Shown here: in pieces, positions 5,821-42,252 of the stretch
Numbering within the stretch: the stretch's first letter is position 1
How the letters are laid out: the number at the start of each line of letters is the position of its first letter
Origin: Catellatospora vulcania
Lineage (GTDB): Bacteria; Actinomycetota; Actinomycetes; Mycobacteriales; Micromonosporaceae
Direction of reading: 5' to 3'
Assembly: GCF_009720385.1 (NCBI RefSeq)
Contig: NZ_ML769303.1
Location: forward strand, 273,979-337,978
Length of the DNA: 64,000 nt
Notes under the pieces: model-generated
Seen by the model: the letters and a program-made list of their open reading frames with translations, nothing else
Database searches by the model: none
Told to the model about the DNA's origin: nothing
Made by a program: the position numbers and the translations under genes

Positions 5821-6068
5821 CGCGACATCCTATGGCGGTTAATAGCACATTTTACGCCTGATAGTCCGTGTCTGGGTTGAATGCGGAAATCGTGTATTTC
5901 ATGTCTCGTGTTCGGAGCACCGAGAAGGTGCTTCGGCGCCGGTGGGCTCCCGGATGGGCCGCTGACGGCAAGTGGACAGGCAGCCATCTATACGTGAGGC
6001 CGGGTCCGAAGTTCCGGCGACAGACGCGGTTGGCGCGTCTGCCCCTCAGAACCGGGGAGGACCCGACC

Positions 6069-7712
6069 ATGAGACTCACCCTTCGCCGACGGGGTCGCCG
6101 CACCGGCACCGTGCTCGCCCTGGCGGCCTGCGTGGCCGTCTCCGGCGGGCTGTACGCGCTCGGGCCCGGCCCGGCCGGCGCGTCCAGCCACCGCGAGGCG
6201 CCTCTCGTCGCGCTCGATCCCGCCGTCGACGCGACCGACCTGTACGCCTTCGTCAGCCCGGACCGGCCCGGATACGTCACGTTCGTGGCGAACTGGGTGC
6301 CGTTCCAGGAGCCCAACGGCGGCCCCAACTTCTACCCGTTCGCCACCGACGCGCAATACATGATCAATGTGGACAGCGACGGCGACGCGCGGCCCGACGC
6401 CCGCTTCCGGTGGACGTTCAAGAACGTCGACAAGCGCGGCAACTCCACCTTCCTGCTCAACAACGGGCCGGTGACCTCGCTGGACGACGAGAACCTGCTG
6501 TTCAAGCAGACGTACACGCTGGAGTCCTCGTTCAACGGCGAGGCCTTCCGCACCCGCGCCACCAACGTCGGGGTCGCACCTTCGCGGGTGGGCCCGGCGT
6601 CCATGCCGGACTACGGCGCGCTGCGCGAGCAGGCCACCGTCAAACTGCCCGGCGGCTGGCGCATCTTCGCCGGGCAGGCCGACGACCCGTTCTTCCTCGA
6701 TCTGCGGGTGTTCGACCTGCTCTACGGCGGCGACCTCAGCGAGACCGGGCAGGACACCCTGGCCGGCTACAACGTCAACACCATCGCGCTGGAGGTGCCG
6801 TTCAAGGACGTCGCCCTGCGCGGCGACGGCGAGCGCAACCCCGTGATCGGCGTGTGGACCACCACCGAGCGGCCCCGGGTGCGCATCACCGGACGCACCG
6901 GCGACCCGCGCGGCGGCGACCGGGTGCAGGTCTCCCGGCTGGGCAACCCGCTGGTCAACGAGGTCGTCGTGCCCGCCGGACTCAAGGACGCGTTCAACGC
7001 CTCCCGGCCCGACGGCGACGCGAAGATCCCGCAGCTGGTCAAGCGGGTCACCGAACCCGAGGTGCCCAAGCTCATCGAGGCGATCTACAACATCCCCGCC
7101 CCGGCCACCCCGCGCAACGACCTGGTCGAGATCTTCCTGACCGGCATCACCACCAAGGCGAACGGCCCGATCAAGGCGGACCTCAACTCGCAGCTCAACA
7201 ACGCCGACGTGAACCCGTCGAAGTTCCGCCCGTCGGAGATGCTCCGGCTGAACCTGTCCACGCCGGTCACCGCCGACCCGAACCGGCTCGGCGTCATCGG
7301 CGGCGACCTGCAGGGCTTCCCGAACGGGCGGCGGCTGGCCGACGACGTCGTCGACATCGAGCTGCAGGCCCTGGTCGGCGCGGCGCAGACCGGGCAGATC
7401 GTGGACGCGCTGGCAGCCGGGGACGCGGTCGACGCCAACGAGAACGCCTTCGGCGACACGTTCCCGTACGTCGCCCTGCCCAACGCGACCGCGGTGAACG
7501 CGGCCGCCGCGGCCCCGGCCGGACCGGCCTCGGCCGACCCGTCCCCGGCGTCCGCGTCGACCACCGTCGAGGAAGGCATGTCCACCGGCGACACGATGGC
7601 CGTCGTCGGCTCCTCCGTCGCCGGCGGCCTCGGCCTGCTCCTCTTCGCCGGCTGGTGGATGCGCCGCCGCAACCGCACCCACCCCCACGGCCCCGAAACC
7701 CACGTCCACTGA
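6069..7712 (+). CDS. Secreted DUF4331 protein with C-terminal membrane anchor
   Basis: A 547-residue DUF4331 protein. It has an Arg-rich signal peptide (about residues 1-40), and the mature chain starts with the family motif SSHREAPL, followed by DATDLYAF and NWVPFQEP. The C-terminal part has an Ala/Pro/Ser linker and a membrane helix (VVGSSVAGGLGLLLFAGWWM) followed by an Arg- and His-rich tail, so the protein is probably anchored on the cell surface. The start is ATG 6069 with GGGGAGG eight bases before it. It leads a set of genes (DUF4331, TPR, NicO transporter). The biochemical role of DUF4331 is not established; the linkage to a Ni/Co transporter suggests metal handling. Confidence 0.85.
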   Translation: MRLTLRRRGRRTGTVLALAACVAVSGGLYALGPGPAGASSHREAPLVALDPAVDATDLYAFVSPDRPGYVTFVANWVPFQEPNGGPNFYPFATDAQYMINVDSDGDARPDARFRWTFKNVDKRGNSTFLLNNGPVTSLDDENLLFKQTYTLESSFNGEAFRTRATNVGVAPSRVGPASMPDYGALREQATVKLPGGWRIFAGQADDPFFLDLRVFDLLYGGDLSETGQDTLAGYNVNTIALEVPFKDVALRGDGERNPVIGVWTTTERPRVRITGRTGDPRGGDRVQVSRLGNPLVNEVVVPAGLKDAFNASRPDGDAKIPQLVKRVTEPEVPKLIEAIYNIPAPATPRNDLVEIFLTGITTKANGPIKADLNSQLNNADVNPSKFRPSEMLRLNLSTPVTADPNRLGVIGGDLQGFPNGRRLADDVVDIELQALVGAAQTGQIVDALAAGDAVDANENAFGDTFPYVALPNATAVNAAAAAPAGPASADPSPASASTTVEEGMSTGDTMAVVGSSVAGGLGLLLFAGWWMRRRNRTHPHGPETHVH

Positions 7713-7713
7713 A

Positions 7714-7761
7714 AGGAAGGGCGCCTTCACGACGCTATGCGTTGTAGAAGGTGCCCTTCCC
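7714..7761. repeat. Dispersed hairpin repeat, copy 2 of 4
   Basis: Arms GGAAGGGCGCCTTC (7715-7728) and GAAGGTGCCCTTCC (7747-7760) pair along their length, with one G-U type pair where copy 1 has A-U. The loop core CGCTATGCG is shared. It begins at the base after the DUF4331 stop and ends 30 bases before the TPR gene start, so it may attenuate transcription between the two. Confidence 0.85.
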
Positions 7762-7790
7762 ATCGCTCGTCTGCGAAAGGGGAGGTAGTC

Positions 7791-9164
7791 ATGTGGCGAC
7801 GGATCATCGCGGTGGGCGTCACCGCCGCGGCGCTGCTCGGCCTCGGGGGTGCGTTCGGCGCGTCATCGGCGCCCTGGATCGCCGAGCCCGCGCACGCACA
7901 GGCCGATCCGCTGGTCAAATCGATCGAGCAGGCGCAGGCGCGGCTGCGGGACGTGCCCGGCGACTGGACCACCTGGGCGGCGCTGGGCAGCGCGTACGTC
8001 GAGCGGGCCCGGATCACCGGGGACCCCGGCTACTACACCAGGGCCGAGGGTGCGCTGCGCGAATCGCTGCGTCTGCACCCGGCGGGCACGCCGTCGACCG
8101 GATCCGGCAACCCCGCCAGCTCCGGTGGTGCCAGAACAGGCGCCGGGACCAGCGCCGGGGCCGGGGACGGCACGGGCAACCATGCCGCGCTGACCGGGCT
8201 GGGCGCGCTGGCCAACGCGCGGCACGACTTCACGCTCGCCGAACGGCTGGCCCGGCAGGCGGTCGCGGCCAACCCGTTCAGCGCCGACGCGTACGGGGTG
8301 CTGACCGATGCGCTGACCCAGCTCGGCCGCCCCGCCGAGGCGACCGAGGCGGCGCAGCGCATGCTCGACCTGCGGCCGGGGCTGCCCGCGCTGTCCCGGG
8401 CGGCGTACGACCTCGAACAGCACGGCCGGGTCGACGAGGCCCGTGCCCTGTGGACGCAGGCGCTCGCCACCGCGATCGCGCCCGCCGACCTGGCCTTCGT
8501 CCACCACCAGCTCGGCGACCTCGCCTGGCACGGTGGCGACCTCACCGCGGCCCGCGCCGCCTACCAGGCCGGGCTGTCCGCGGACGGCGGCTACCTGCCG
8601 CTGCGCCACGGGCTCGCCCGCGTCGACGCGGCGAGCGGCCGCACCGGCGAGGCGCTGGCCGGGTACGCGGCACTGACCGCCGCCTCGCCGACCCCGTCCC
8701 TGCTCGTCGAGCACGCGCTGCTGCTGCGCTCGCTCGGCCGCGCCGACGAAGCCGAAACGCAGCTGGCCCTGGCCCAAGCCGCGCTCGACCTGCTGACCGC
8801 CGGGGGAGGCGGGGACGCGCTCGCCGCCGCCGAACTGGCCCTGGCCCGCGGCGACCACGCCACCGCGGTGCGCCTGGCCGAGGGAGAGTGGCGACGGCGC
8901 AGGCACACCGACGTCGCCGACACCCTCGCCTGGGCGCTGCACCAGGCCGGCCGCCCCGCCGAGGCGCTGCCCCTGGCCCGAGCCGCGGCGGCGCTCGGCG
9001 CGCGCAGCGCGCTCCACGCGTACCACCTCGGAATGATCGAACTCGCCCTCGGCGACCGCGCGGCCGCCCGCCGCGATCTCGCCCGGGCCCTGCGGCTCAA
9101 CCCCCACTTCTCCCCGGTCGACGCGCCCGCCGCGGCGCGCGCCCTGGCCTCGGCAGGTGCCTGA
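7791..9164 (+). CDS. Exported TPR-repeat protein
   Basis: A 457-residue protein with an N-terminal membrane/signal segment (IIAVGVTAAALLGLGGAF, residues 5-22) followed by TPR-like helical pairs from about residue 43 to the end. A Gly/Ser/Ala-rich, low-complexity insertion lies at about residues 102-128. ATG 7791 has AAGGGGAGG upstream. The stop TGA shares its final A with the ATG of the transporter gene, so translation is probably coupled. As a TPR scaffold beside a secreted DUF4331 protein and a metal transporter, it probably organises an extracytoplasmic complex. No catalytic motif is visible. Confidence 0.82.
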   Translation: MWRRIIAVGVTAAALLGLGGAFGASSAPWIAEPAHAQADPLVKSIEQAQARLRDVPGDWTTWAALGSAYVERARITGDPGYYTRAEGALRESLRLHPAGTPSTGSGNPASSGGARTGAGTSAGAGDGTGNHAALTGLGALANARHDFTLAERLARQAVAANPFSADAYGVLTDALTQLGRPAEATEAAQRMLDLRPGLPALSRAAYDLEQHGRVDEARALWTQALATAIAPADLAFVHHQLGDLAWHGGDLTAARAAYQAGLSADGGYLPLRHGLARVDAASGRTGEALAGYAALTAASPTPSLLVEHALLLRSLGRADEAETQLALAQAALDLLTAGGGGDALAAAELALARGDHATAVRLAEGEWRRRRHTDVADTLAWALHQAGRPAEALPLARAAAALGARSALHAYHLGMIELALGDRAAARRDLARALRLNPHFSPVDAPAAARALASAGA

Positions 9165-10771
9165 TGAACCCGAAGACGACGATCCGCCGCACGCTGCCGG
9201 TCGCGGCGCTGGTGGGAGCCGCGCTCGCGCTGCTGCCCGCCCCCGCTTCCGCGCACCCGCTCGGCAACCTGTCCGTCAACCAGCTGGTCGCGCTGACCCT
9301 GCGTCCCGCCGCCGTCGACGCCACCACGGTCCTCGACGTCGCCGAACTGCCCACCCTGCAGCAGCGCGGCACGGTCGACACCTCCGGCGACGGCGTCGCC
9401 GACCCGCCCGAGCTGCGTGCGCACGCCGCGGCCGCGTGCGACGCCTTCGCCCGCGACCTGGCGGTACGCGTCGACGACCGCGCCCTGCGCTGGGCCGTCC
9501 GCTCCGCCGCGATGACCCTCGAACCAGGCTCCGCGGGCCTGCCCACCAGCCGGATCACCTGCACCCTGAGCGCACCCGCACGGCTGGACCGGCCCGCCGT
9601 GCTCACCATCCACAACGGCCACCTCGCCGACCACATCGGCTGGCGGGAGATCACCGCCACCGGCGCGGGCGTCGACCTGCCCGGCTCGCCCGTACCGGCG
9701 CGCAGCACCACGAACGAGCTGCGCGACTACCCCGTCGACCTGCTCGGCTCCCCGCTCGACGTCCGCGACGCCCGCCTGCCCGCCCGCCCCGGCACAGGCA
9801 CGGCGGCGTCCGGCTACCCGGCGACCGGCGCCGTCTCCGGATCGGCGCCTGACCTGGGCGCGCCCGCACGACCCGACGACCCTGCGCCGCTGCGCTGGGC
9901 AGCCTGGACACAGCAGCAGGTCCTGGACGCCGTCGGCGCCGACCGGCTCACCCCGCTCGTCGGCCTCCTCGCCGTCCTGCTCGCCCTGGTGCTCGGGGCA
10001 GGGCACGCGCTGCTGCCCGGACACGGCAAGACCGTGATGGCGGTATACCTGGCCGGTCGTGCGGGCCGCCCGCGCGACGCCCTGACCGTCGGCGCGACCG
10101 TCACCGCGACCCACACCGGCGGCGTCATCGCCCTCGGCCTCCTGCTCACCGCCGTCTCCGGCCTGACCGGCCAGACCGTGCTCGGCTGGCTCGGCCTGGC
10201 CAGCGGCACCATCGTGATCACCGTAGGCCTCGCGATGCTGCTGACCGCGCTGCGCCGCCGTGCCGCCCACAGCCACGCCCACGACACGCACGACCACGAC
10301 ACGCACGACCACGACACGCACGCCCACGACACGCACGACCACGGCTCGCACGCCCATGGCTCGCACGTTCACGGCTTGCATGGGCAGGTGCATCGGCATG
10401 GTCTGTTCGGCCGGGCGCATTCCCACGACGGCAGCCATGCGCAGGGGCCCCCCGGACGCGGGCGGTTCGGGCTCGGGGCGATCGGAGTGGCGGCGGGGCT
10501 GGTGCCGAGTCCGTCCGCGCTGGTCGTGCTGCTGGGCGCGATAGCGCTGGGCCGGACCGGTTTCGGCATCCTGCTCGTGCTCGCCTACGGCCTGGGCATG
10601 GCGGGCACGCTCACCGCGGCCGGGCTGCTACTGCTCAAGGTTCGCGACCGCTGGGCGGGGCGGTTCGACCGATTCCGTCGCATCCGCCTGGCGGGACCCT
10701 ACGCCGCGAGCGCGATGGTGCTGCTCGTCGGCGTCGGCCTGGCCGCTCGTGCGGCGACGCTGGTGGCCTGA
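9164..10771 (+). CDS. NicO/RcnA-type nickel-cobalt transporter with N-terminal exported domain
   Basis: A 535-residue protein. A signal peptide (to about residue 29, ASAHPLGN) leads into an exported domain of about 230 residues, then six or more membrane helices. The first helix holds GAGHALLPGHGKT and the second TATHTGG, the histidine motifs of the NicO/RcnA metal-transporter family. Between helices is a striking His/Asp repeat (about residues 368-425, HDTHDHDTHDHDTH and variants), a probable metal sensor or buffer. The ATG at 9164 overlaps the TPR stop by one base. Nickel or cobalt is expected; direction (import or export) is unclear because RcnA relatives export while the operon context could suit either. 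Confidence 0.87.
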   Translation: MNPKTTIRRTLPVAALVGAALALLPAPASAHPLGNLSVNQLVALTLRPAAVDATTVLDVAELPTLQQRGTVDTSGDGVADPPELRAHAAAACDAFARDLAVRVDDRALRWAVRSAAMTLEPGSAGLPTSRITCTLSAPARLDRPAVLTIHNGHLADHIGWREITATGAGVDLPGSPVPARSTTNELRDYPVDLLGSPLDVRDARLPARPGTGTAASGYPATGAVSGSAPDLGAPARPDDPAPLRWAAWTQQQVLDAVGADRLTPLVGLLAVLLALVLGAGHALLPGHGKTVMAVYLAGRAGRPRDALTVGATVTATHTGGVIALGLLLTAVSGLTGQTVLGWLGLASGTIVITVGLAMLLTALRRRAAHSHAHDTHDHDTHDHDTHAHDTHDHGSHAHGSHVHGLHGQVHRHGLFGRAHSHDGSHAQGPPGRGRFGLGAIGVAAGLVPSPSALVVLLGAIALGRTGFGILLVLAYGLGMAGTLTAAGLLLLKVRDRWAGRFDRFRRIRLAGPYAASAMVLLVGVGLAARAATLVA

Positions 10772-12542: not shown

Positions 12543-12588
12543 CAACGCACCCTATGACGGTCAGGCAACGCCGTGGGCCGCGCGTGAA

Positions 12589-12624
12589 GCGCCGGCCGCG
12601 GCGGCATCCCGCTGCGGCCGGCGC
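12589..12624 (-). terminator. Terminator hairpin of the guanidine operon
   Basis: Arms GCGCCGGCCGC (12589-12599) and GCGGCCGGCGC (12614-12624) are perfect 11-base complements, just past the ATPase stop on the minus strand. Confidence 0.72.
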
Positions 12625-12636
12625 CCGGACAGGCCG

Positions 12637-13416
12637 TCAGGCCTGGTGGTGGTAGAGCCGGACCAGGTCCTCGATCTCGGCGCGTACGCCCAGGAAGGCG
12701 GCGTCGCGTTTGACGGTGAGGTCGCGTTCGCCGGGCAGCGGGACGGTCACGTCGGCGGCGACGCGGCCGGGGTTGCTGGCCAGGGTGATGACGCGCTGGC
12801 CGAGGAAGACGGCCTCCTCCACGTCGTGGGTGACCATGATGACGGTGGTGCCGCACTCGTGCCACAGGCGGCGGATGAACAGCTGCATGTCCTCCTTGGT
12901 CTGCACGTCGAGCGCGCCGAACGGCTCGTCGAGCAGCAGCACCTCGGGTTCGCAGGCCAGCGCGCGGGCGATGGCGACGCGCTGGCGCTGGCCGCCGGAC
13001 AGCTGCCGGGGCAGCGCGTGGCGCAGCCCGGTCAGGCCGGTCGCGGCGAGGTAGTGGTCGACGCGGGCGGCGCGCTCGCCGCGGCTCAGCGGCAGCAGTT
13101 CCAGTCCGAACGCGACGTTGCGTTCGACGGTGCGCCAGGGGTAGACGGCGCCGGTCTGGAAGACCATGCCGCGGTCGGGTCCGGGGCCGGCGACGGGAAC
13201 CCCGTCGAGCAGGACCTCGCCGGTGGTGGGCCGGGACAGGCCCGCGATCAGGGAGAGCAGCGTGGACTTGCCGGAGCCGGACGCGCCGACCACGCACACG
13301 AACGAGCCGCGGGCGACCTCCAGGTCGATGTCCTCCAGCGCGCGCACCTGCTCCCAGCCGCGGGTGAAGTCCTTGCCGACGGCCTTCAGGCACAGCGTCC
13401 CGGTCACGAGGTCCAC
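12637..13416 (-). CDS. ABC transporter ATP-binding protein, SsuB/TauB type (guanidine operon)
   Basis: A 259-residue ATPase of the nitrate/sulfonate/taurine import family: Walker A GASGSGKST (about 44-52), signature LSGGQRQR, Walker B VLLLDEPFGALD, H-loop VTHDVEEA. It is the last gene of the riboswitch-led operon and should drive the permease upstream. The start is GTG 13416 (VDLVTGTLCL); GTG 13407 is a possible alternative. The sequence around this start is a near copy of the sequence at the permease stop 50 bases earlier (see the duplication at 13403-13472). This duplication explains why these two genes have a 37-base gap while the other junction inside the operon overlaps. Confidence 0.9.
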   Translation of the reverse strand: MDLVTGTLCLKAVGKDFTRGWEQVRALEDIDLEVARGSFVCVVGASGSGKSTLLSLIAGLSRPTTGEVLLDGVPVAGPGPDRGMVFQTGAVYPWRTVERNVAFGLELLPLSRGERAARVDHYLAATGLTGLRHALPRQLSGGQRQRVAIARALACEPEVLLLDEPFGALDVQTKEDMQLFIRRLWHECGTTVIMVTHDVEEAVFLGQRVITLASNPGRVAADVTVPLPGERDLTVKRDAAFLGVRAEIEDLVRLYHHQA

Positions 13417-13472
13417 CTTCCGGCCGTGCCGCCTCGGCGCGGCGGAGTTCTCGTCACGAGGTCCACCTGCCG
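13403..13472 (-). repeat. Direct duplication at the permease/ATPase junction
   Basis: A block of about 19 bases (minus-strand core GGTGGACCTCGTGAC) occurs at 13403-13421 and 13453-13471, a 50-base period. The distal copy holds the permease stop and an out-of-frame GTG. The proximal copy holds the ATPase start. Reading from the distal GTG gives a 20-codon frame that ends in RWTS-stop, the same end as the permease. Confidence 0.75.
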
Positions 13473-14488
13473 ACCCGGTCGCGCAGCAGGCGCAGCGCGA
13501 TGTCGATGGTGAGGCCGATCAGCGCGATGACCACGAGGACCGCGAAGATGCGGTCGATCTGGTTGAAGCGCTGCGACCGCACGATGCGGTAGCCGAGGCC
13601 CTCCTCGGCCGCGAACAGCTCGGCGACGACCACGAAGTTCCAGGCCGCGGCCGCGTTGACCCGGATCGCGTCGAGGATGCCGGGCAGCGAGTGCGGGATG
13701 ACGACCTTGCGCAGCACCTCTCCGCGCCGGGCGCCGAGGGTGTACGACACGTCGACGAGCGCGCCCGGTATCCGGCGTACCGCGTCGGCGGTCATCAGGG
13801 TGTTGAAGAAGACGGTGCCGAGGAACAGCAGCGCCACCTTCGACATCTCGTCGATGCCCAGCCACAGCGCCAGCAGCGGGATGAACGCGCTCGCCGGCAG
13901 GTAGCGCAGCAGGCCGATGACCGGCTCGAACGCGGCCCGCCCGGCCTGGAACGCGCCCATCGCGATGCCGAGCGGCACCGAGACCGCCACGGCCAGCCCG
14001 AAGCCGAGCAGCACCCGTCTGATGCTGGCGACGGTGTCGCCGAGCAGCAGCCCGTCCCGGGCCAGGTCCAGCCCGGCCGCCCAGGCCTGGGCGGGTGACG
14101 GCAGGTAGTCGGGACGGCCGTCGATGACGGTGCTGAGCAGTTGCCACAGCGCGAGCGGCACGAGCACCGACAGCGCGGTCAGCGCCAGCCGGGACGGCCG
14201 CGGGATCGGGGTGCGGATCGCGAAGACCCGCGGCACACGGCGCGGCGGCTGCCGCCGGGGCAGCGGCGCGAACGCCGCCGCCCCGGCTCCCGTGCCGGCG
14301 TGCACCGCGACGGCCGCGCCGTCGGCCGCGGCGGTGTCGCCGGTCAGGTCCAGGTGTGCCGCGGACGGATCGCCCGCGGCGGGCGGGCTCTCCCGCGACG
14401 CGGCGTCAGCGGCGGCGAGCGGGCCGGCCGTGCCCGGCCCGCCTGGGCTGCCGGCCGGCTCCGGCCCACCCTCGGTGAGCACGCTCAT
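13454..14488 (-). CDS. ABC transporter permease, SsuC type (guanidine operon)
   Basis: A 344-residue inner-membrane permease. Residues 1-95 form an unusual hydrophilic Ala/Pro/Gly-rich N-terminus. About six membrane helices follow, with the binding-protein-dependent transport (EAA) loop near SYTLGARRGEVLRKVVIPHSLP. The family is the nitrate/sulfonate/bicarbonate one. The ATG at 14488 overlaps the stop of the binding-protein gene (ATGA). Given the guanidine riboswitch and guanidine hydrolase in the same transcript, the transporter probably imports guanidine or a guanidino compound; the substrate is inferred from context only. Confidence 0.88.
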   Translation of the reverse strand: MSVLTEGGPEPAGSPGGPGTAGPLAAADAASRESPPAAGDPSAAHLDLTGDTAAADGAAVAVHAGTGAGAAAFAPLPRRQPPRRVPRVFAIRTPIPRPSRLALTALSVLVPLALWQLLSTVIDGRPDYLPSPAQAWAAGLDLARDGLLLGDTVASIRRVLLGFGLAVAVSVPLGIAMGAFQAGRAAFEPVIGLLRYLPASAFIPLLALWLGIDEMSKVALLFLGTVFFNTLMTADAVRRIPGALVDVSYTLGARRGEVLRKVVIPHSLPGILDAIRVNAAAAWNFVVVAELFAAEEGLGYRIVRSQRFNQIDRIFAVLVVIALIGLTIDIALRLLRDRVGRWTS

Positions 14489-15492
14489 GGCGATACCGCC
14501 TGGACGAACTTGGGTTCGAGCAGGCCGTCCAGCGGGGGTGCGGTGTCGACGAGCTTCGCCGAGACCATGAACTCGGCGATCGACTTCGCCTGGAAGTCGA
14601 GGTTGGCGGGGGTCGAGCCGGGCGTGAACGCGGCCAGGTTCTGCTCCCGGGTGAAGATCGTCGTACCGGCGTCGTACGACTTGTAGTCGGCGGCGCTGAC
14701 CCCGGCCTTCTTCGCCATGACGTCGATCGCGGCGTCCGGGTTGGCCTTGATCCAGGCCAGGGTGTCGAACCAGGTCTTCACCACGGCCTGCACCTCGGTC
14801 GGGTGGTCCTTGACGAACGCGGTGGTGAAGACCAGGTGGTCGGGGATCGCGCCGGGGAAGTCGGCGCTGGTGGCGATGGCCTTGCTGCCCGCCAGGCCGA
14901 GCGCGGTCGTGGTGAACGGGGCGAACGCGCCCACCGCGTCGACCTCGCCGGTGGTGAAGGCCGCCGCGGCGGCGTCGGTCAGCATCGGCTTGAGCTGGAT
15001 GTCGGCCTCGGTCAGCCCGGCCGTCTTCAGCGCGAGCAGCAGCAGGTAGTGGTCGACGGTGCCCTGCTCGACGGCGACCCGCTTGCCTTTCAGGTCGGCG
15101 AGCGTGTTGATGCCGGGCTTGGCGATGATCTGGTCGTTGCCGGTGGAGTTGTCGTTGACCAGCACGATGGTCTGCTGTGCGCCGCCGCTGACCGAGGTCA
15201 GGGTGTCGCCCAGGGTCTGGCTGTTGGCGCTGAGGTTGCCGGTGGCCAGCGCGGTGAGGCTGTCGGTGTAGCTGTCGAAGTACTTCAGCTCGACGGTGAC
15301 GCCGTTCTTGGCGAACAGGCCCTGCTCCTGGGCGACCTGCCAGGGGAACCAGCCGGGCCAGGCGCTGAAGCCGAGCACGACGGTGGCGGGCGCGCCCGGT
15401 GCGGGCTCGTCCGCGCCGCAGGCGGTGGCGGGCAGGACCAGCGCGGCGACGGCGGTGACAGCCGCGAGGCGGTGGCGGAAACGACGGTTCAT
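14485..15492 (-). CDS. NMT1/SsuA-like substrate-binding lipoprotein (guanidine operon)
   Basis: A 335-residue lipoprotein: signal peptide with a lipobox ending at Cys25 (ATAC), then a periplasmic-binding fold beginning VVLGFSAWPGWFPWQVA, typical of the SsuA/TauA/NrtA class. The chain contains LADLKGKRVAVEQGTVDHYLL and the TTGEVDAVGAFAPF segment. It is the second gene of the riboswitch-led operon, 27 bases after the hydrolase stop. It should capture the substrate outside the membrane and pass it to the permease. Relatives beside guanidine-I riboswitches are thought to bind guanidine or related guanidino compounds; the ligand here is inferred. Confidence 0.88.
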   Translation of the reverse strand: MNRRFRHRLAAVTAVAALVLPATACGADEPAPGAPATVVLGFSAWPGWFPWQVAQEQGLFAKNGVTVELKYFDSYTDSLTALATGNLSANSQTLGDTLTSVSGGAQQTIVLVNDNSTGNDQIIAKPGINTLADLKGKRVAVEQGTVDHYLLLLALKTAGLTEADIQLKPMLTDAAAAAFTTGEVDAVGAFAPFTTTALGLAGSKAIATSADFPGAIPDHLVFTTAFVKDHPTEVQAVVKTWFDTLAWIKANPDAAIDVMAKKAGVSAADYKSYDAGTTIFTREQNLAAFTPGSTPANLDFQAKSIAEFMVSAKLVDTAPPLDGLLEPKFVQAVSP

Positions 15493-15519
15493 GTATGTCT
15501 CCTGGAGGATGCGAGAAGG

Positions 15520-16692
15520 TCAGGAGGTGCGGCGGGGCAGGTGGCCGGCGCGGACGAGGCAGCCGAGCGTGTCGCAGATGACGCGGGTCGCGATGAGCGA
15601 GGTGATGTCGGCGTTGTCGTACGGCGGCGAGCACTCGACGATCTCGATGCCCGCCAGCGGCCGCTCGGCGATGAGCTGGATGAACTTGAGCACCTCGCGG
15701 GGCAGGAAACCGCCCGGCTCGGGCCAGCCGGTGCCGGGCACGAACGCGGCGTCCAGGCAGTCCACGTCGAAGGACAGCCACACCGCCTCGGCCCCGTCCC
15801 AGGCCACTTCGAGGGCGCGTTCGGCGGCGGCCTCGATGCCCATCTCGACGCAGTCGGTGACCGTCATGATCGTGGTGCCGCGCTCCCGGCCCACCTTGAC
15901 GCCGGGCCGCGGGGCCTGCCAGCCGCCGATGCCGATCTGCACCAGGTTCTTCGGCGGCACGTTCGGGATGTCCGTGGCGTGGAACCACGGGGTGGTGTGC
16001 ATCCGCTCGTCGAGGTCGGTCTCCTGGGTGTCGACGTGCCGGTCGAAGTGGATGATGCCGAGGTTGCCCTGCAGGTGCTCGGCGACCCCGCGCACGGTGG
16101 GGTAGCCGATGGAGTGGTCGCCGCCGAGCACGACCGGGAACGCGCCCGAGGCGTACACGTGGCCGACGGCCTTGGAGATCTGGTCGAACGTCTTCTCGAT
16201 GTTGGCGGGGATGGTGAACACGTCACCCAGGTCCGCGATCGTGATCGACTCCCGCAGGTCCACGCCCAGCTCGAAGCTGTACGGGCCGTACAGCGCGGAG
16301 ATGCGCCGGATGCCCTGCGGGCCGAACCGGGTGCCGGGGCGGTAGGTGGTGCCGCCGTCGAACGGCGCGCCCAGCACCGCGACGTCGTACTCGCCGCAGC
16401 GGCGCACGTCCTCCAGGTACGGGGCCTTGAGGAAGGTGTTGATCCCGGCGAAGTGCGGCAGCTCGCCACGGGAGAACGTCGGGATGCGCTTGTCGACGAT
16501 GGAGTCCGCGCCGGGCAGGCCGTATTCGAGGCCCCGGGCGATCTCCTCCTCCCACTTCGTGGTGGGCAGCTCGGCCTCGCGCGCGACGGCGTACGCCGCC
16601 TCGGGGCCGTAGTGCTCGTGCAGGCCGTGCTGCTCGCGCAGGGCGTTGTCGTCGGGCGAGCCGTGGCGGTGATGGTGGTGGGCGAAGCCCAT
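15520..16692 (-). CDS. gdmH: Guanidine hydrolase (ureohydrolase superfamily, GdmH-like)
   Basis: A 390-residue ureohydrolase. It carries WEEEIARGLEYGLPGADS and the metal motifs GGDHS (His193), FDRHVDTQ (Asp217, His219, Asp221) and DVDCLD. FDRHVDTQETDLDERMHTTPW replaces the agmatinase DAHTD motif and follows the nickel-dependent guanidine hydrolase of cyanobacteria (Sll1077, which I recall at similar length). The expected reaction is guanidine plus water to urea plus ammonia. The N-terminus is unusually His-rich (HHHHRHG at residues 5-11, more His to residue 27). Start ATG 16692 has GGAGG six bases upstream. It is the first gene after the guanidine-I riboswitch. No HypA/HypB-like nickel chaperone genes are adjacent. 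Confidence 0.88.
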   Translation of the reverse strand: MGFAHHHHRHGSPDDNALREQHGLHEHYGPEAAYAVAREAELPTTKWEEEIARGLEYGLPGADSIVDKRIPTFSRGELPHFAGINTFLKAPYLEDVRRCGEYDVAVLGAPFDGGTTYRPGTRFGPQGIRRISALYGPYSFELGVDLRESITIADLGDVFTIPANIEKTFDQISKAVGHVYASGAFPVVLGGDHSIGYPTVRGVAEHLQGNLGIIHFDRHVDTQETDLDERMHTTPWFHATDIPNVPPKNLVQIGIGGWQAPRPGVKVGRERGTTIMTVTDCVEMGIEAAAERALEVAWDGAEAVWLSFDVDCLDAAFVPGTGWPEPGGFLPREVLKFIQLIAERPLAGIEIVECSPPYDNADITSLIATRVICDTLGCLVRAGHLPRRTS

Positions 16693-16741
16693 GGGGCGCC
16701 TCCGAGACGAGGAGCCTGGCCGCGAAACAGCCAGGTGTTCG

Positions 16742-16866
16742 GCTGTCTCCCGGGCTTTTGTCCCGCCGTGGAACGGCCACGCCGCTGCGCGGGCCGCCTG
16801 CGCCTCTCGGACCAGGCCCGTCCGGCGACCCGTAACGACAGGGCCGGAACGGCGGAACCCTAGGCG
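16742..16866 (-). ncRNA. Guanidine-I (ykkC) riboswitch
   Basis: On the minus strand the leader runs CTAGGGTTCCGCC, then CTGGTCCGAGAGGCGC, a variable GC-rich arm, and CGGCGGGACAAAAGCCCGGG followed by AGACAGC. These are the three conserved blocks of the guanidine-I/ykkC aptamer in order and spacing. The aptamer ends about 50 bases before the hydrolase ATG. The bases between can form hairpins close to the GGAGG, which fits control of either termination or ribosome access. The genes it controls (guanidine hydrolase and importer) match the ligand. Confidence 0.92.
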
Positions 16867-16992
16867 CGCCTCACCTTCGGTGAGTCACCGTGGATTACAT
16901 CGGCGAATGGTTTCCCCTCGATGTCGCCGCCGTTGCCGGGCCGTGACCGCCGTCCCGACCGCGCCGACGGGCCGTCCCGCGTCCGCTGCCGT

Positions 16993-17154
16993 TAGGATCG
17001 GACCGGCGGCAGGGAGGAACTCGGGGAAGAGCCGAGACGGTCCCGCCACTGTGACCGGGGAGCCCGTCCCCACCCCGTCGACACGCTGTCGAGGCCACCG
17101 CAAGGGAAGGCCCGGGGCCGGGCGTTGATCCGGGAGTCAGGAGACTCCGGCCGC
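16993..17154 (+). ncRNA. Cobalamin riboswitch upstream of cobN
   Basis: It contains the B12 box GCCACTGTGACCGGGGAGC (17045-17063) and, about 70 bases later, the conserved 3-prime block CCGGGAGTCAGGAGACTCCGG. Upstream GGGAGGAACTCGG and GAGCCGAGACGG form the expected arm. Boundaries are approximate. The cobN start is 50 bases downstream behind AGGAGG. It should repress cobN when adenosylcobalamin is plentiful. Confidence 0.92.
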
Positions 17155-17204: not shown

Positions 17205-20200
17205 ATGACGGCTGTGCAAGGTCTGCTGCTGTCCACTGCGGACACCGAACTGCTCGCCGCCCGCGCGTCGGACGCGCCCTGGCGTATCGCCAACCCCGCC
17301 CGGGTCGACCCCGGCGACGTTCCCGAGCTGCTGCAAGACGTCGCCTTCGTGGTGGTACGCCTACTCGGCGGCCGCCGCACCTGGCCGGAAGGGCTCGACG
17401 CGGTGCTCGCCGGGGGCCTGCCGGTGGTGGTGCTGGGCGGGGAGGCGCAGCCCGACGCCGCGCTGCAGGCCGAGTCGACGGCGCCCGCCGGGGTCGCCGG
17501 GGAGGCGCTGGCATACCTGGTCGAGGGCGGCGCGGACAACCTGCGCGAGCTGCACCGGTTCCTGTCCGACACGCTGCTGATGACCGGTGAGGGCTTCGAA
17601 CCGCCGCACGCCACGCCGGAGTACGGCGTACGCCCCGGCCCGGCGCACGAGGCCGGGCGGCCGACCGTCGGGATCGTCTACTACCGGGCGCACGAGCTGG
17701 CCGGGAACACCGCGTTCGTGGACACCCTCGCCGGGGCGCTGCACGACGCGGGGGCCAACTCGCTGCCGGTGTACTGCGGCTCGCTGCGCGGGGTGTCCGA
17801 CGGGCTGCGGGACCTGCTGCGCGGCTGCGACGCGCTGATCGTCACGGTGCTGGCCGCGGGCGGCACGATCGCGGCGGACGCGAGCGGCGGCGGGGACGAC
17901 GAGGCCTGGTCGGTCGCGGCGCTGGCCGAACTCGACGTGCCGGTGCTCCAGGCGCTGTGTCTGACCTCGTCACGGGCGGGGTGGCAGGACTCGGACGCGG
18001 CGCTCAGCCCGATGGACGCGGCGATGCAGGTGGCGATCCCGGAGTTCGACGGCCGCCTGATCACGGTGCCGTTCTCGTTCAAGGAGCCCGGCCCGGACGG
18101 CATCGGCGTGTACGCCGCCGACCCGGAGCGGGCGGCCCGGGTCGCGGGTATCGCGGTGCGCCAGGCTCGGCTGCGGCACGTGCCCAACGAGCGCAAGCGG
18201 CTCGCGATCGTGCTGTCCAGCTACCCGACCCGGCACTCGCGGGTGGGCAACGCGGTCGGCCTGGACACCCCGGCCAGCGCGGTGGTGCTGCTGCGGGCGC
18301 TGCGCGAGGCCGGGTACGACCTGGGTGAGGGCTTCCCCGAGGACGGCGACGCGCTGATCCACACGCTGATCGCGGCGGGCGGGCACGACGTGGAGTGGCT
18401 GACCGAGGAGCAGCTCGCGGCGGCCCCGGCCCGGGTGCCGCTGCGCGCGCACACGCGCTGGCTGGACGCGCTGCCCGCGAGCCTGCGCGACGGCATCGTG
18501 GCCGCGTGGGGCGAGCCGCCGGGTGAGCTGTACGTGGACCGCGGCGAGATCGTGCTGGCCGCGCTGCGGTTCGGCAACGTGCTGCTGATGATCCAGCCGC
18601 CGCGCGGCTTCGGGGAGAACCCGGTCGCCATCTACCACGACCCGGACCTCGCGCCGAGCCACCACTACCTGGCCGCGTACCGCTGGCTGGACGAGGAGTT
18701 CGGCGCGGACGCGGTGGTGCACCTGGGCAAGCACGGCACCCTGGAATGGCTGCCGGGCAAGGGGCTGGGCCTGTCCCGCGAGTGCGCCCCGGACGCGGTG
18801 CTCGGCGACCTGCCGCTGGTGTACCCGTTCATCGTCAACGACCCGGGTGAGGGCACCCAGGCCAAGCGGCGCGGGCACGCGGTGATCGTGGACCACCTGG
18901 TGCCGCCGATGGCCCGCGCGGAGACGTACGGCGAGATGGCGAAGCTGGAGCAGTTGCTCGACGAGTACGCCACCGTGCAGGCCCTCGACCCGACGAAGCT
19001 GCCCGCGGTGCGCGCGCAGATCTGGACCCTGATCCAGGCCGCGCAGCTGCACCACGACCTGCACCAGGCCGACATGCCCGGAGTGGACGACTTCGACGAC
19101 TTCATCCTGCACGTGGACGGCTACCTGTGCGAGGTCAAGGATTCGCAGATCCGCGACGGCCTGCACATCCTCGGCGGCGCGCCGGAGGGTGAGGCGCGGA
19201 TCAACCTGGTGCTCGCGGTGCTGCGCGCCAACCAGGTCTGGGGCGGCGTGCGCGGCGCGCTGCCGGGCCTGCGGGCGGCGCTGTGCCGCCGGTACGGGCT
19301 GGACGAGCGCGCGCTGCTGGCCGAGCCCGGAGCCGCGGTGGCGGTGCCCGCGGACCTGACCGAGGTCGTCGACGGCCCGGCCCGCACCGGCGCGGACGCC
19401 GTCGACCTGATCGAGGGCGTGGCCCGGCGGCTCGTCATCGGCAACGAGACGCTGGGCTGGGAGCCGTCGAAGGTCCCGGCGGTGGTCGCCGAGGTGCTGG
19501 GCGGGCCGGACGACGCCGTCGAGGCGGTGCTGCGCTTCGCCGCGACCGAGGTCGTGCCCAGGCTGGACGCGACCGTGGACGAGGTGACCGCGGTGCTGAA
19601 AGCGCTGGACGGGCGCTACGTCGCGGCCGGGCCGTCCGGCTCGCCGACCCGCGGCCTGGTCAACGTGCTGCCGACCGGGCGCAACTTCTACTCCGTCGAC
19701 CCGAAGGCGATCCCGTCGCGCAACGCCTGGGACGTGGGCGTGGCGCTGGCGGACTCGCTGCTGGCCCGGCACCGGCAGGAGACGGGCGAGTGGCCGCGTA
19801 CGGTCGGGCTGACCGTGTGGGGCACGTCGGCGATGCGTACCCAGGGCGACGACATCGCCGAGGTGCTGGCGCTGCTGGGCTGCCGTCCGACCTGGGACGA
19901 CGCGTCGCGGCGGGTGACCGGGTTCGCGGTGGTGCCGCTGGCGGAGCTGGGCCGGCCGCGGGTGGACGTGACGGTGCGCATCTCCGGGTTCTTCCGAGAC
20001 GCGTTCCCGCACGCGGTGGCGCTGATCGACGACGCGGTGCGGGCGGTGGCCGACCTCGACGAGCCCGACGAGGACAACTTCGTGCGCGCGCACGCCCGCG
20101 CCGACGAGGCCGAGCACGGCGACCGGCGGCGGGCCACCACGCGCATCTTCGGTTCCAAGCCGGGGGCGTACGGGGCCGGCCTGCTCCCACTCATCGACGC

Positions 20201-20855
20201 CCGGAACTGGCGCGACGACAAGGACCTGGCCGAGGTGTACGCGGTCTGGGGCGGCTACGCCTACGGCCGCGACCTGGACGGCCGGGCGGCCCGGGAGGAC
20301 CTGGAACGGGTCTATCGCCGGGTCAGCGTCGCCGCGAAGAACGTGGACACCCGCGAGCACGACATCGTCGACTCCGACGACTACTTCCAGTACCACGGCG
20401 GCATGATCGCGATGGTGCGCACGCTGACCGGCGTGTCCCCGACCGCGGTGATCGGCGACTCGCACCTGCCCGACAGCGTGAAGACGCGCACCCTGGGCGA
20501 GGAGACCAAACGCGTGTTCCGGGCCCGGGTGGTCAACCCGCGCTGGATCGCCGCGATGATGCGCCACGGCTACAAGGGCGCGTTCGAGCTGGCCGCGACA
20601 GTCGACTACCTGTTCGGCTACGACGCCACGGCCGGGGTCGTCGACGACTGGATGTACCAGAAACTGGCCGAGGCGTACGTCTTCGACCCGGAGGTGCGCG
20701 AGTTCATGGAGCGGTCCAACCCGTGGGCGCTGCGTGGCATCAGCGAACGCCTCATCGAGGCCGCCGACCGGGGGCTGTGGGCGGAGCCGGACCCGGCCAC
20801 GCTGGAGGCGCTGCGCCAGGCGTACCTGTCGGTGGAGGGCGAGCTGGAAGGCTGA
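17205..20855 (+). CDS. cobN: Cobaltochelatase subunit CobN
   Basis: A 1216-residue CobN/BchH-family chelatase, full length. It has the family motif HLGKHGTLEWLPGKG (about residue 505), followed by PFIVNDPGEGTQAKRRGHAVIVDH, and the C-terminal block YQYHGGMIAMVRTLTG-like segment (seen as FQYHGGMIAMVRTLTG) plus NPRWIAAMMRHGYKGA. It holds the tetrapyrrole and cobalt, and works with an AAA/VWA ATPase to insert Co into hydrogenobyrinate a,c-diamide. That partner is the chelatase ATPase at 29593, itself under a second cobalamin riboswitch 8.7 kb away. Start ATG 17205 has AGGAGG upstream. It stands alone; the next gene has its own promoter-like element. Confidence 0.95.
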   Translation: MTAVQGLLLSTADTELLAARASDAPWRIANPARVDPGDVPELLQDVAFVVVRLLGGRRTWPEGLDAVLAGGLPVVVLGGEAQPDAALQAESTAPAGVAGEALAYLVEGGADNLRELHRFLSDTLLMTGEGFEPPHATPEYGVRPGPAHEAGRPTVGIVYYRAHELAGNTAFVDTLAGALHDAGANSLPVYCGSLRGVSDGLRDLLRGCDALIVTVLAAGGTIAADASGGGDDEAWSVAALAELDVPVLQALCLTSSRAGWQDSDAALSPMDAAMQVAIPEFDGRLITVPFSFKEPGPDGIGVYAADPERAARVAGIAVRQARLRHVPNERKRLAIVLSSYPTRHSRVGNAVGLDTPASAVVLLRALREAGYDLGEGFPEDGDALIHTLIAAGGHDVEWLTEEQLAAAPARVPLRAHTRWLDALPASLRDGIVAAWGEPPGELYVDRGEIVLAALRFGNVLLMIQPPRGFGENPVAIYHDPDLAPSHHYLAAYRWLDEEFGADAVVHLGKHGTLEWLPGKGLGLSRECAPDAVLGDLPLVYPFIVNDPGEGTQAKRRGHAVIVDHLVPPMARAETYGEMAKLEQLLDEYATVQALDPTKLPAVRAQIWTLIQAAQLHHDLHQADMPGVDDFDDFILHVDGYLCEVKDSQIRDGLHILGGAPEGEARINLVLAVLRANQVWGGVRGALPGLRAALCRRYGLDERALLAEPGAAVAVPADLTEVVDGPARTGADAVDLIEGVARRLVIGNETLGWEPSKVPAVVAEVLGGPDDAVEAVLRFAATEVVPRLDATVDEVTAVLKALDGRYVAAGPSGSPTRGLVNVLPTGRNFYSVDPKAIPSRNAWDVGVALADSLLARHRQETGEWPRTVGLTVWGTSAMRTQGDDIAEVLALLGCRPTWDDASRRVTGFAVVPLAELGRPRVDVTVRISGFFRDAFPHAVALIDDAVRAVADLDEPDEDNFVRAHARADEAEHGDRRRATTRIFGSKPGAYGAGLLPLIDARNWRDDKDLAEVYAVWGGYAYGRDLDGRAAREDLERVYRRVSVAAKNVDTREHDIVDSDDYFQYHGGMIAMVRTLTGVSPTAVIGDSHLPDSVKTRTLGEETKRVFRARVVNPRWIAAMMRHGYKGAFELAATVDYLFGYDATAGVVDDWMYQKLAEAYVFDPEVREFMERSNPWALRGISERLIEAADRGLWAEPDPATLEALRQAYLSVEGELEG

Positions 20856-27687: not shown

Positions 27688-32475
<4,788 letters not shown>

Positions 32476-42021: not shown

Positions 42022-42212
42022 TTGCTGGCATGGTGAGGGCAACAAGTTCACATCAGACGACGGTGCGCAGGAACCCGGTGAGAATCCGGGACGGTCCCGC
42101 CACTGTGACCGGGGAGCGCCCCGCACGAGCCACGGCCGCCGCAGCGGCTGGAAGGCGCGGCAAGCGCGACGAAGTTCCATCCACCCGGGAGTCAGGACAC
42201 TGACCCGTCGTT
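42022..42212 (+). ncRNA. Cobalamin riboswitch upstream of cbtB-cbtA
   Basis: It contains GGAACCCGGTGAGAATCCGG, the B12 box GCCACTGTGACCGGGGAGC (42099-42117) and the 3-prime block CCGGGAGTCAGGACACTG. It lies between the cbiX stop and the cbtB start, with cbtB 41 bases after its end. Confidence 0.92.
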
Positions 42213-42252
42213 GTCCAGTTCGGGGCGGTGAACCCCGAGGAGGAGGTCTGTC

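Follow-up and report, generated by a model that had tools for sequence, protein, structure and literature searches.

A guanidine-I riboswitch operon of Catellatospora vulcania encodes a predicted nickel guanidinase with a histidine-rich N-terminal tail

Among the described systems closest to the locus treated here, the operon of Synechocystis PCC 6803 comprises (i) a guanidine-I riboswitch, (ii) a nickel guanidinase (GdmH, Sll1077) and (iii) SsuA/permease/SsuB-type ATP-binding cassette (ABC) transporter genes (PMC8390497, PMC12186494), together with genes for nickel delivery (PMC12186494); hypA and hypB are named for such gdmH operons (PMC8390497). The guanidinase of Nitrospira inopinata (9fek), the closest solved relative, has no adjacent nickel chaperone and carries an N-terminal extension; in comammox bacteria the place of the ABC transporter is taken by an APC permease, and the nickel acquisition of this chaperone-less enzyme is stated to be unclear (PMC11410670). 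The metformin hydrolase operon (MefH/DmgH, hypA, hypB, hupE) likewise encodes nickel ureohydrolases alongside HypB, a nickel protein rich in His, and a permease for nickel, but differs in its substrate, its heteromeric enzyme and its canonical HypA/HypB (PMC11399263). The pathway, the riboswitch link and the association with ABC transporters are already in print (PMC8390497, PMC12186494, PMC11410670). An operon of this kind is located on the minus strand of a 64,000-nucleotide stretch of Catellatospora vulcania (contig NZ_ML769303.1, positions 273,979 to 337,978; hereafter the window), where a guanidine-I riboswitch precedes gdmH and ABC transporter genes follow it. The predicted GdmH protein starts with a His-rich tail that may, tentatively, assist its nickel supply.

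The gdmH gene (15520-16692, minus strand, 390 aa; ATG start with GGAGG upstream) encodes an arginase-family protein (PF00491, 270 bits), the closest named relative being that of Catellatospora paridis (99 %). Among solved structures, the guanidinases of N. inopinata (9fek, 722 bits) and Synechocystis (7esr/7oi1, 581 bits; both identified in PMC11410670) are by far the nearest, the third-best relative, proclavaminate amidinohydrolase, reaching only 190 bits. Agmatinase, arginase and formimidoylglutamase models were matched by GdmH, none of them at its cut-off (157.3 bits for agmatinase TIGR01230, cut-off 174.3). The guanidine-specificity residues of the N. inopinata enzyme, Thr105, His222, Trp313 and Glu344 (PMC11410670), correspond to T116, H232, W323 and E353 of GdmH, the numbering offset being derived from the structure-search alignment; all four are present and invariant in an alignment of 28 sequences. 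The motifs FDRHVDTQ and DERMHTTPW, upon which a first-pass annotation of this DNA had called a nickel guanidine hydrolase, and the N-terminus MGFAHHHHRHG are all found in the translated protein, and the assignment to the GdmH-type guanidinases and not to the agmatinases is upheld. Also invariant in the 28-sequence alignment are H193, D217, H219, D221, D309 and D311, which we take to be the metal ligands from their role in the arginase family. Judged by its sequence, GdmH is a further nickel guanidinase of an already characterised type. The genome harbours one such gdmH, one paralogue at 37 % identity and two weak partial matches.

Three genes downstream of gdmH on the same strand encode an uptake-type ABC transporter, in agreement with the first-pass annotation: a substrate-binding lipoprotein of the SsuA family that presumably binds guanidine (14485-15492; TIGR01728, 213.7 bits, cut-off 163.5), a permease (13454-14488; PF00528), whose gene overlaps the preceding one by 4 nt, and an ATPase (12637-13416; PF00005). 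With permease and ATPase genes adjoining, the lipoprotein can be assigned to an SsuA-family importer. As to the one terminator proposed for the operon, a GC-rich hairpin does lie 3' of the ATPase gene (12570-12640, minus strand; -48.4 kcal/mol, z -2.55), but it has no U-run and was missed by a scan for T-runs; it possibly represents a U-less terminator. Of the 80 relatives compared, i.e., the best 80 of at least 573 confirmed loci (at least 591 matched stretches), 32 possess the same three genes downstream of gdmH and in its orientation; the locus stretches reach at most 7 kb to each side of gdmH, some less, and all neighbour counts are accordingly lower bounds.

The leader of gdmH contains a guanidine-I aptamer (16745-16874, minus strand) that matches RF00442 over its full length (model positions 1-107 of 107) and, at 68.0 bits (E 6e-10; Rfam covariance model, window), exceeds the gathering score of 63; the interval proposed earlier, 16742-16866, agrees with this to a few bases, and genome-wide no second RF00442 match was found. 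In the presumed expression platform (16690-16756, minus strand; RNA folds and covariation), two mutually exclusive hairpins with a common GGCUG strand are predicted, followed by a local hairpin that holds the Shine-Dalgarno sequence GGAGG of gdmH. For the downstream leader hairpin, which joins columns 35-41 and 52-58 of the leader alignment, 19 sequences, i.e., the window and 18 of 30 relatives with a full riboswitch pattern, give 89.5 % paired cells and 10 doubly changed ones as compared to a shuffled mean of 2.9. It is possible that the leader exerts control at translation start, at transcription, or at both. Searching at most 700 bases upstream of the conserved gdmH part with a strict pattern revealed the riboswitch in 33 of the 80 relatives (30 full, 3 core only). 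Two results weigh against the reading of the operon offered below: the competing hairpin, which takes the 3' end of the aptamer, displays no covariation among the aligned leaders, and the strict pattern was not found in the scanned stretch of the other 47 relatives. Rfam searches of eight loci from clades at 55-66 % identity and of L132 from the main clade likewise yielded nothing above gathering; since the leader of the same gene as in L132, represented as L097, did match the riboswitch pattern, a missing gathering hit is no proof that a riboswitch is absent.

Taken as a whole, the operon very probably (roughly 85 %) allows the cell to use or clear guanidine by means of riboswitch, ABC uptake and nickel-dependent GdmH. 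By analogy with the named relatives, from which ligand response and direction of the switch are adopted, guanidine would bind to the leader and turn the operon on. The transporter, given the substrate of its relatives, would import guanidine, and GdmH, if it shares their activity and nickel content, would split guanidine into urea and ammonia. Subsequent cleavage of the urea would fall to urease, which is encoded elsewhere in the genome.

Unlike the Synechocystis operon, that of Catellatospora has no adjoining nickel-delivery genes, and the genome contains no HypB above cut-off. The GdmH of Catellatospora possesses a His-rich N-terminal tail (residues 1-22, MGFAHHHHRHG...; 16627-16692, minus strand). 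In most GdmH relatives, an LHDNYGP-like segment is preceded by a tail that is variable. His makes up 82 of the 471 variable-tail residues (17.4 %) of 53 actinobacterial loci, 1 of 286 in 24 Nitrospira, the extension of which is Lys-rich, and 2 of 25 in three others; the background, determined with 430 genes predicted by a crude gene finder in the neighbouring DNA, is 2.4 % overall and 2.8 % at residues 2-9. At least three His within residues 2-9 occur in 20 of the 53 actinobacterial GdmH proteins and in none of the Nitrospira (0/24) or other (0/3) ones, as compared to 3/430 neighbouring genes, all three encoding UreG; for at least two His the counts are 38/53 vs 13/430, the values for residues 2-9 being inflated because short tails include the common LHD His. 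Counting the variable tail alone, at least two His are present in 21 and at least three in 9 of the 53. Start codons of gdmH were assigned by a Shine-Dalgarno rule, some remaining uncertain, and were set by hand for L027 and L035, where the rule had picked starts within the riboswitch. The His content of the N-terminus greatly exceeds the background, and His-rich tails are encountered in several genera of Actinobacteria. No report on such a GdmH tail was found in the open literature searched, which does not prove its absence from print.

The actinomycete UreG, including that of C. vulcania, begins with a His-rich tail of the same style and represents the only such gene kind among the 430 neighbours. 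However, UreG acts as a chaperone and passes its metal on to a different protein, whereas the GdmH tail is attached to the presumed nickel enzyme itself.

The earlier statement that neither HypA nor HypB adjoins the hydrolase is confirmed: in C. vulcania, HypA is encoded on another contig beside a NiFe hydrogenase, HycI and HypD, no HypB scored above cut-off genome-wide (the only significant match was UreG on C19, 65 bits), and the HypA protein as tblastn query gave no match of at least 35 bits in the 80 related loci. The premise of a missing nickel chaperone thus applies to the vicinity of gdmH but not to the genome, which carries nickel machinery elsewhere, i.e., HypA with the hydrogenase and UreG beside urease alpha. 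As a separate observation, the hydrogenase region (C25; L090) combines NiFe hydrogenase, HypA, HypD, HycI and an open reading frame that reads as HypE by eye, yet HypB above cut-off is lacking. Among 50 genomes sampled from the 80 loci, HypB above cut-off is present in 11 and a UreG-like match (49-87 bits) in 47.

One may propose that the tail acts as a flexible metal-binding arm which aids GdmH in collecting nickel where an adjacent chaperone or HypB is missing, a proposal that we rate at about 35 %; the arm would perhaps receive nickel from the UreG/HypA machinery. A nickel-capturing tail is plausible; it may buffer or deliver nickel, as the first-pass annotation had put forward. The AlphaFold model of GdmH (28 close relatives aligned) is poor, with a mean predicted local distance difference test score of 58.7 and values below 50 for residues 1-47, and for this reason permits no conclusion on the place of the tail.

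Several findings weigh against such an arm. Tails are His-rich in 7 of 11 genomes with HypB and in 13 of 39 without, and the tail as a replacement for HypB is rejected on these counts. No tie of rich tails to UreG adjacency is seen either: with UreG adjacent to gdmH, 2 of 14 tails are rich, vs 19 of 66 otherwise, a comparison for which the tree supplies only 2 independent pairs with good branch support. In many close relatives the tail is short or His-poor (e.g., MGLFHNHYGP, MFHDHYGP), hence a long His tract is not essential. The reading of the operon as a whole is supported by the presence of UreG inside the stretch of 14/80 gdmH loci (13 on the gdmH strand) and by its co-occurrence with gdmH: gdmH (E 1e-120 or better) was found in 38 of 354 Micromonosporaceae genomes, 7 of which hold only distant relatives (57-66 %), and UreG in 211, comprising 38/38 genomes with and 173/316 without gdmH (Fisher p 1.2e-9; by genus 10/10 vs 13/34, p 6e-4), but these p values are generous because the genomes are related, and urea disposal alone may explain the co-occurrence. 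At most five (gdmH) and eight (UreG) candidates were scored per genome in this survey, so that misses are possible.

The alternatives, which are not mutually exclusive, differ considerably in standing. With somewhat less than even odds, the tail has no nickel role at all and is a stretch prone to slippage which a disordered N-terminus tolerates. Its length and number of His change fast, even inside one genus (L096 vs L001 and L006), differences that would suit fast expansion, and short or His-poor forms are frequent as mentioned. On a quick tree, the 115 scored rows, 48 of them rich, require at least 11 switches between the rich (at least two His) and poor states, a rough number because only 19 of 110 inner branches have good support and 36 are open; the tree comprised 121 rows, scored GdmH rows being trimmed to the part after the tail, and omitted L122 as well as the already represented loci L094, L095 and L131-L134. 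An accumulation without function is opposed by a His content about six- to sevenfold over background in differing contexts (MHWHP, MHYHP, MGHLHH, MGFAHHHH), and by the above-mentioned enrichment of at least three His that is shared solely by UreG among the neighbouring genes and absent from Nitrospira.

A tentative but serious alternative is that the urease accessory proteins (UreG and partners) load GdmH, the tail being incidental or a docking site. It would agree with the presence of UreG in every Micromonosporaceae genome with gdmH and in nearly all sampled genomes, with the urease operon directly upstream of gdmH in Dactylosporangium and with the lack of HypB above cut-off in C. vulcania itself. 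Co-occurrence is nevertheless also expected because GdmH makes urea, and for the comammox guanidinase no nickel-loading chaperone is reported in the text available, though urease is present in 75/83 comammox genomes (PMC11410670).

It is rather improbable that the N-terminal extension serves to stabilise the hexamer, with His employed for packing and not for metal. In N. inopinata, a 14-residue extension does stabilise tertiary and quaternary structure (PMC11410670), and the LHDNYGP segment beside the tail is common to Nitrospira and most Actinobacteria examined. This common segment lies downstream, though, and neither the length nor the sequence of the His-rich part is constant as would befit a packing element.

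Nickel supply to GdmH by a nearby NicO protein, which the first-pass annotation had pointed out 5 kb away, is very unlikely. A NicO gene with a His/Asp loop is indeed present 4.7 kb from the hydrolase (Pfam NicO, 40.7 bits; end at 10771), but on the opposite strand after DUF4331 and TPR genes, its sole NCBIfam resemblance is to a Ni/Co efflux subfamily below cut-off, and it was encountered beside gdmH in only 1/80 related loci (at most 7 kb to each side, some less), from the same genus; as nickel source it is rejected on this synteny. The row of DUF4331, TPR and NicO genes (5868-10771, plus strand) apparently forms one unit unrelated to gdmH. Equally remote is a main activity of the hydrolase on another guanidino compound (agmatine, methylguanidine), since the agmatinase models, though the nearest NCBIfam names, score under their cut-offs, guanidinase residues and guanidine-I leader agree, and 9fek and 7esr are far closer than other solved relatives.

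Relatives of gdmH occur in 11 plasmid records, seven of them alphaproteobacterial (61-63 % identity; five Sinorhizobium fredii, three genera in all). In 7/7 of these, a gene for a small protein adjoins gdmH downstream on the same strand; three were read (L138:7220-7735; L140:7208-7657; L141:7154-7714) and the other four placed by tblastn position. The three proteins begin with a long stretch rich in His, Asp and Gly, their C-terminal part being conserved, and in the S. fredii record that was read, a gene for a HupE/UreJ permease follows. The remaining 4 plasmid records with gdmH and the C. vulcania genome (best E 0.37) yielded no such partner gene, and its product gave no family match in Pfam or NCBIfam and no relative among solved structures, where a single match had E 0.67. 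On sequence grounds, this pattern lends credibility to the idea that His-rich modules beside GdmH handle nickel. One may speculate, though with considerable doubt, that nickel supply of guanidinases is lineage-specific with a common His-rich module, i.e., a HypB-type chaperone for cyanobacteria, the partner protein for Alphaproteobacteria and a UreG-like built-in tail, the enzyme's own collector, for Actinobacteria. The actinobacterial tail and the alphaproteobacterial partner provide two concrete, clonable candidates for nickel acquisition by guanidinases, and both tie guanidine use to the urease nickel machinery.

A GdmH-like clade at 65-66 % identity in Micromonosporaceae has tails with HSH or HTH and no Rfam match above gathering; in 2/5 of its loci (L123:5704-6348, L125) a membrane-protein gene is located just upstream, the product of which resembles a metal transporter by eye and matched no Pfam family. 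Divergent from the guanidine operon in the window are a cobalamin riboswitch (17014-17147) and cobN (17205-20855, plus strand), and two further cobalamin riboswitches are present at 29346-29509 and 42027-42222. Between 20940 and 24637 (plus strand), three tandem pairs of look-alike genes (about 113-119 aa, then 273-281 aa) have apparently arisen by duplication.

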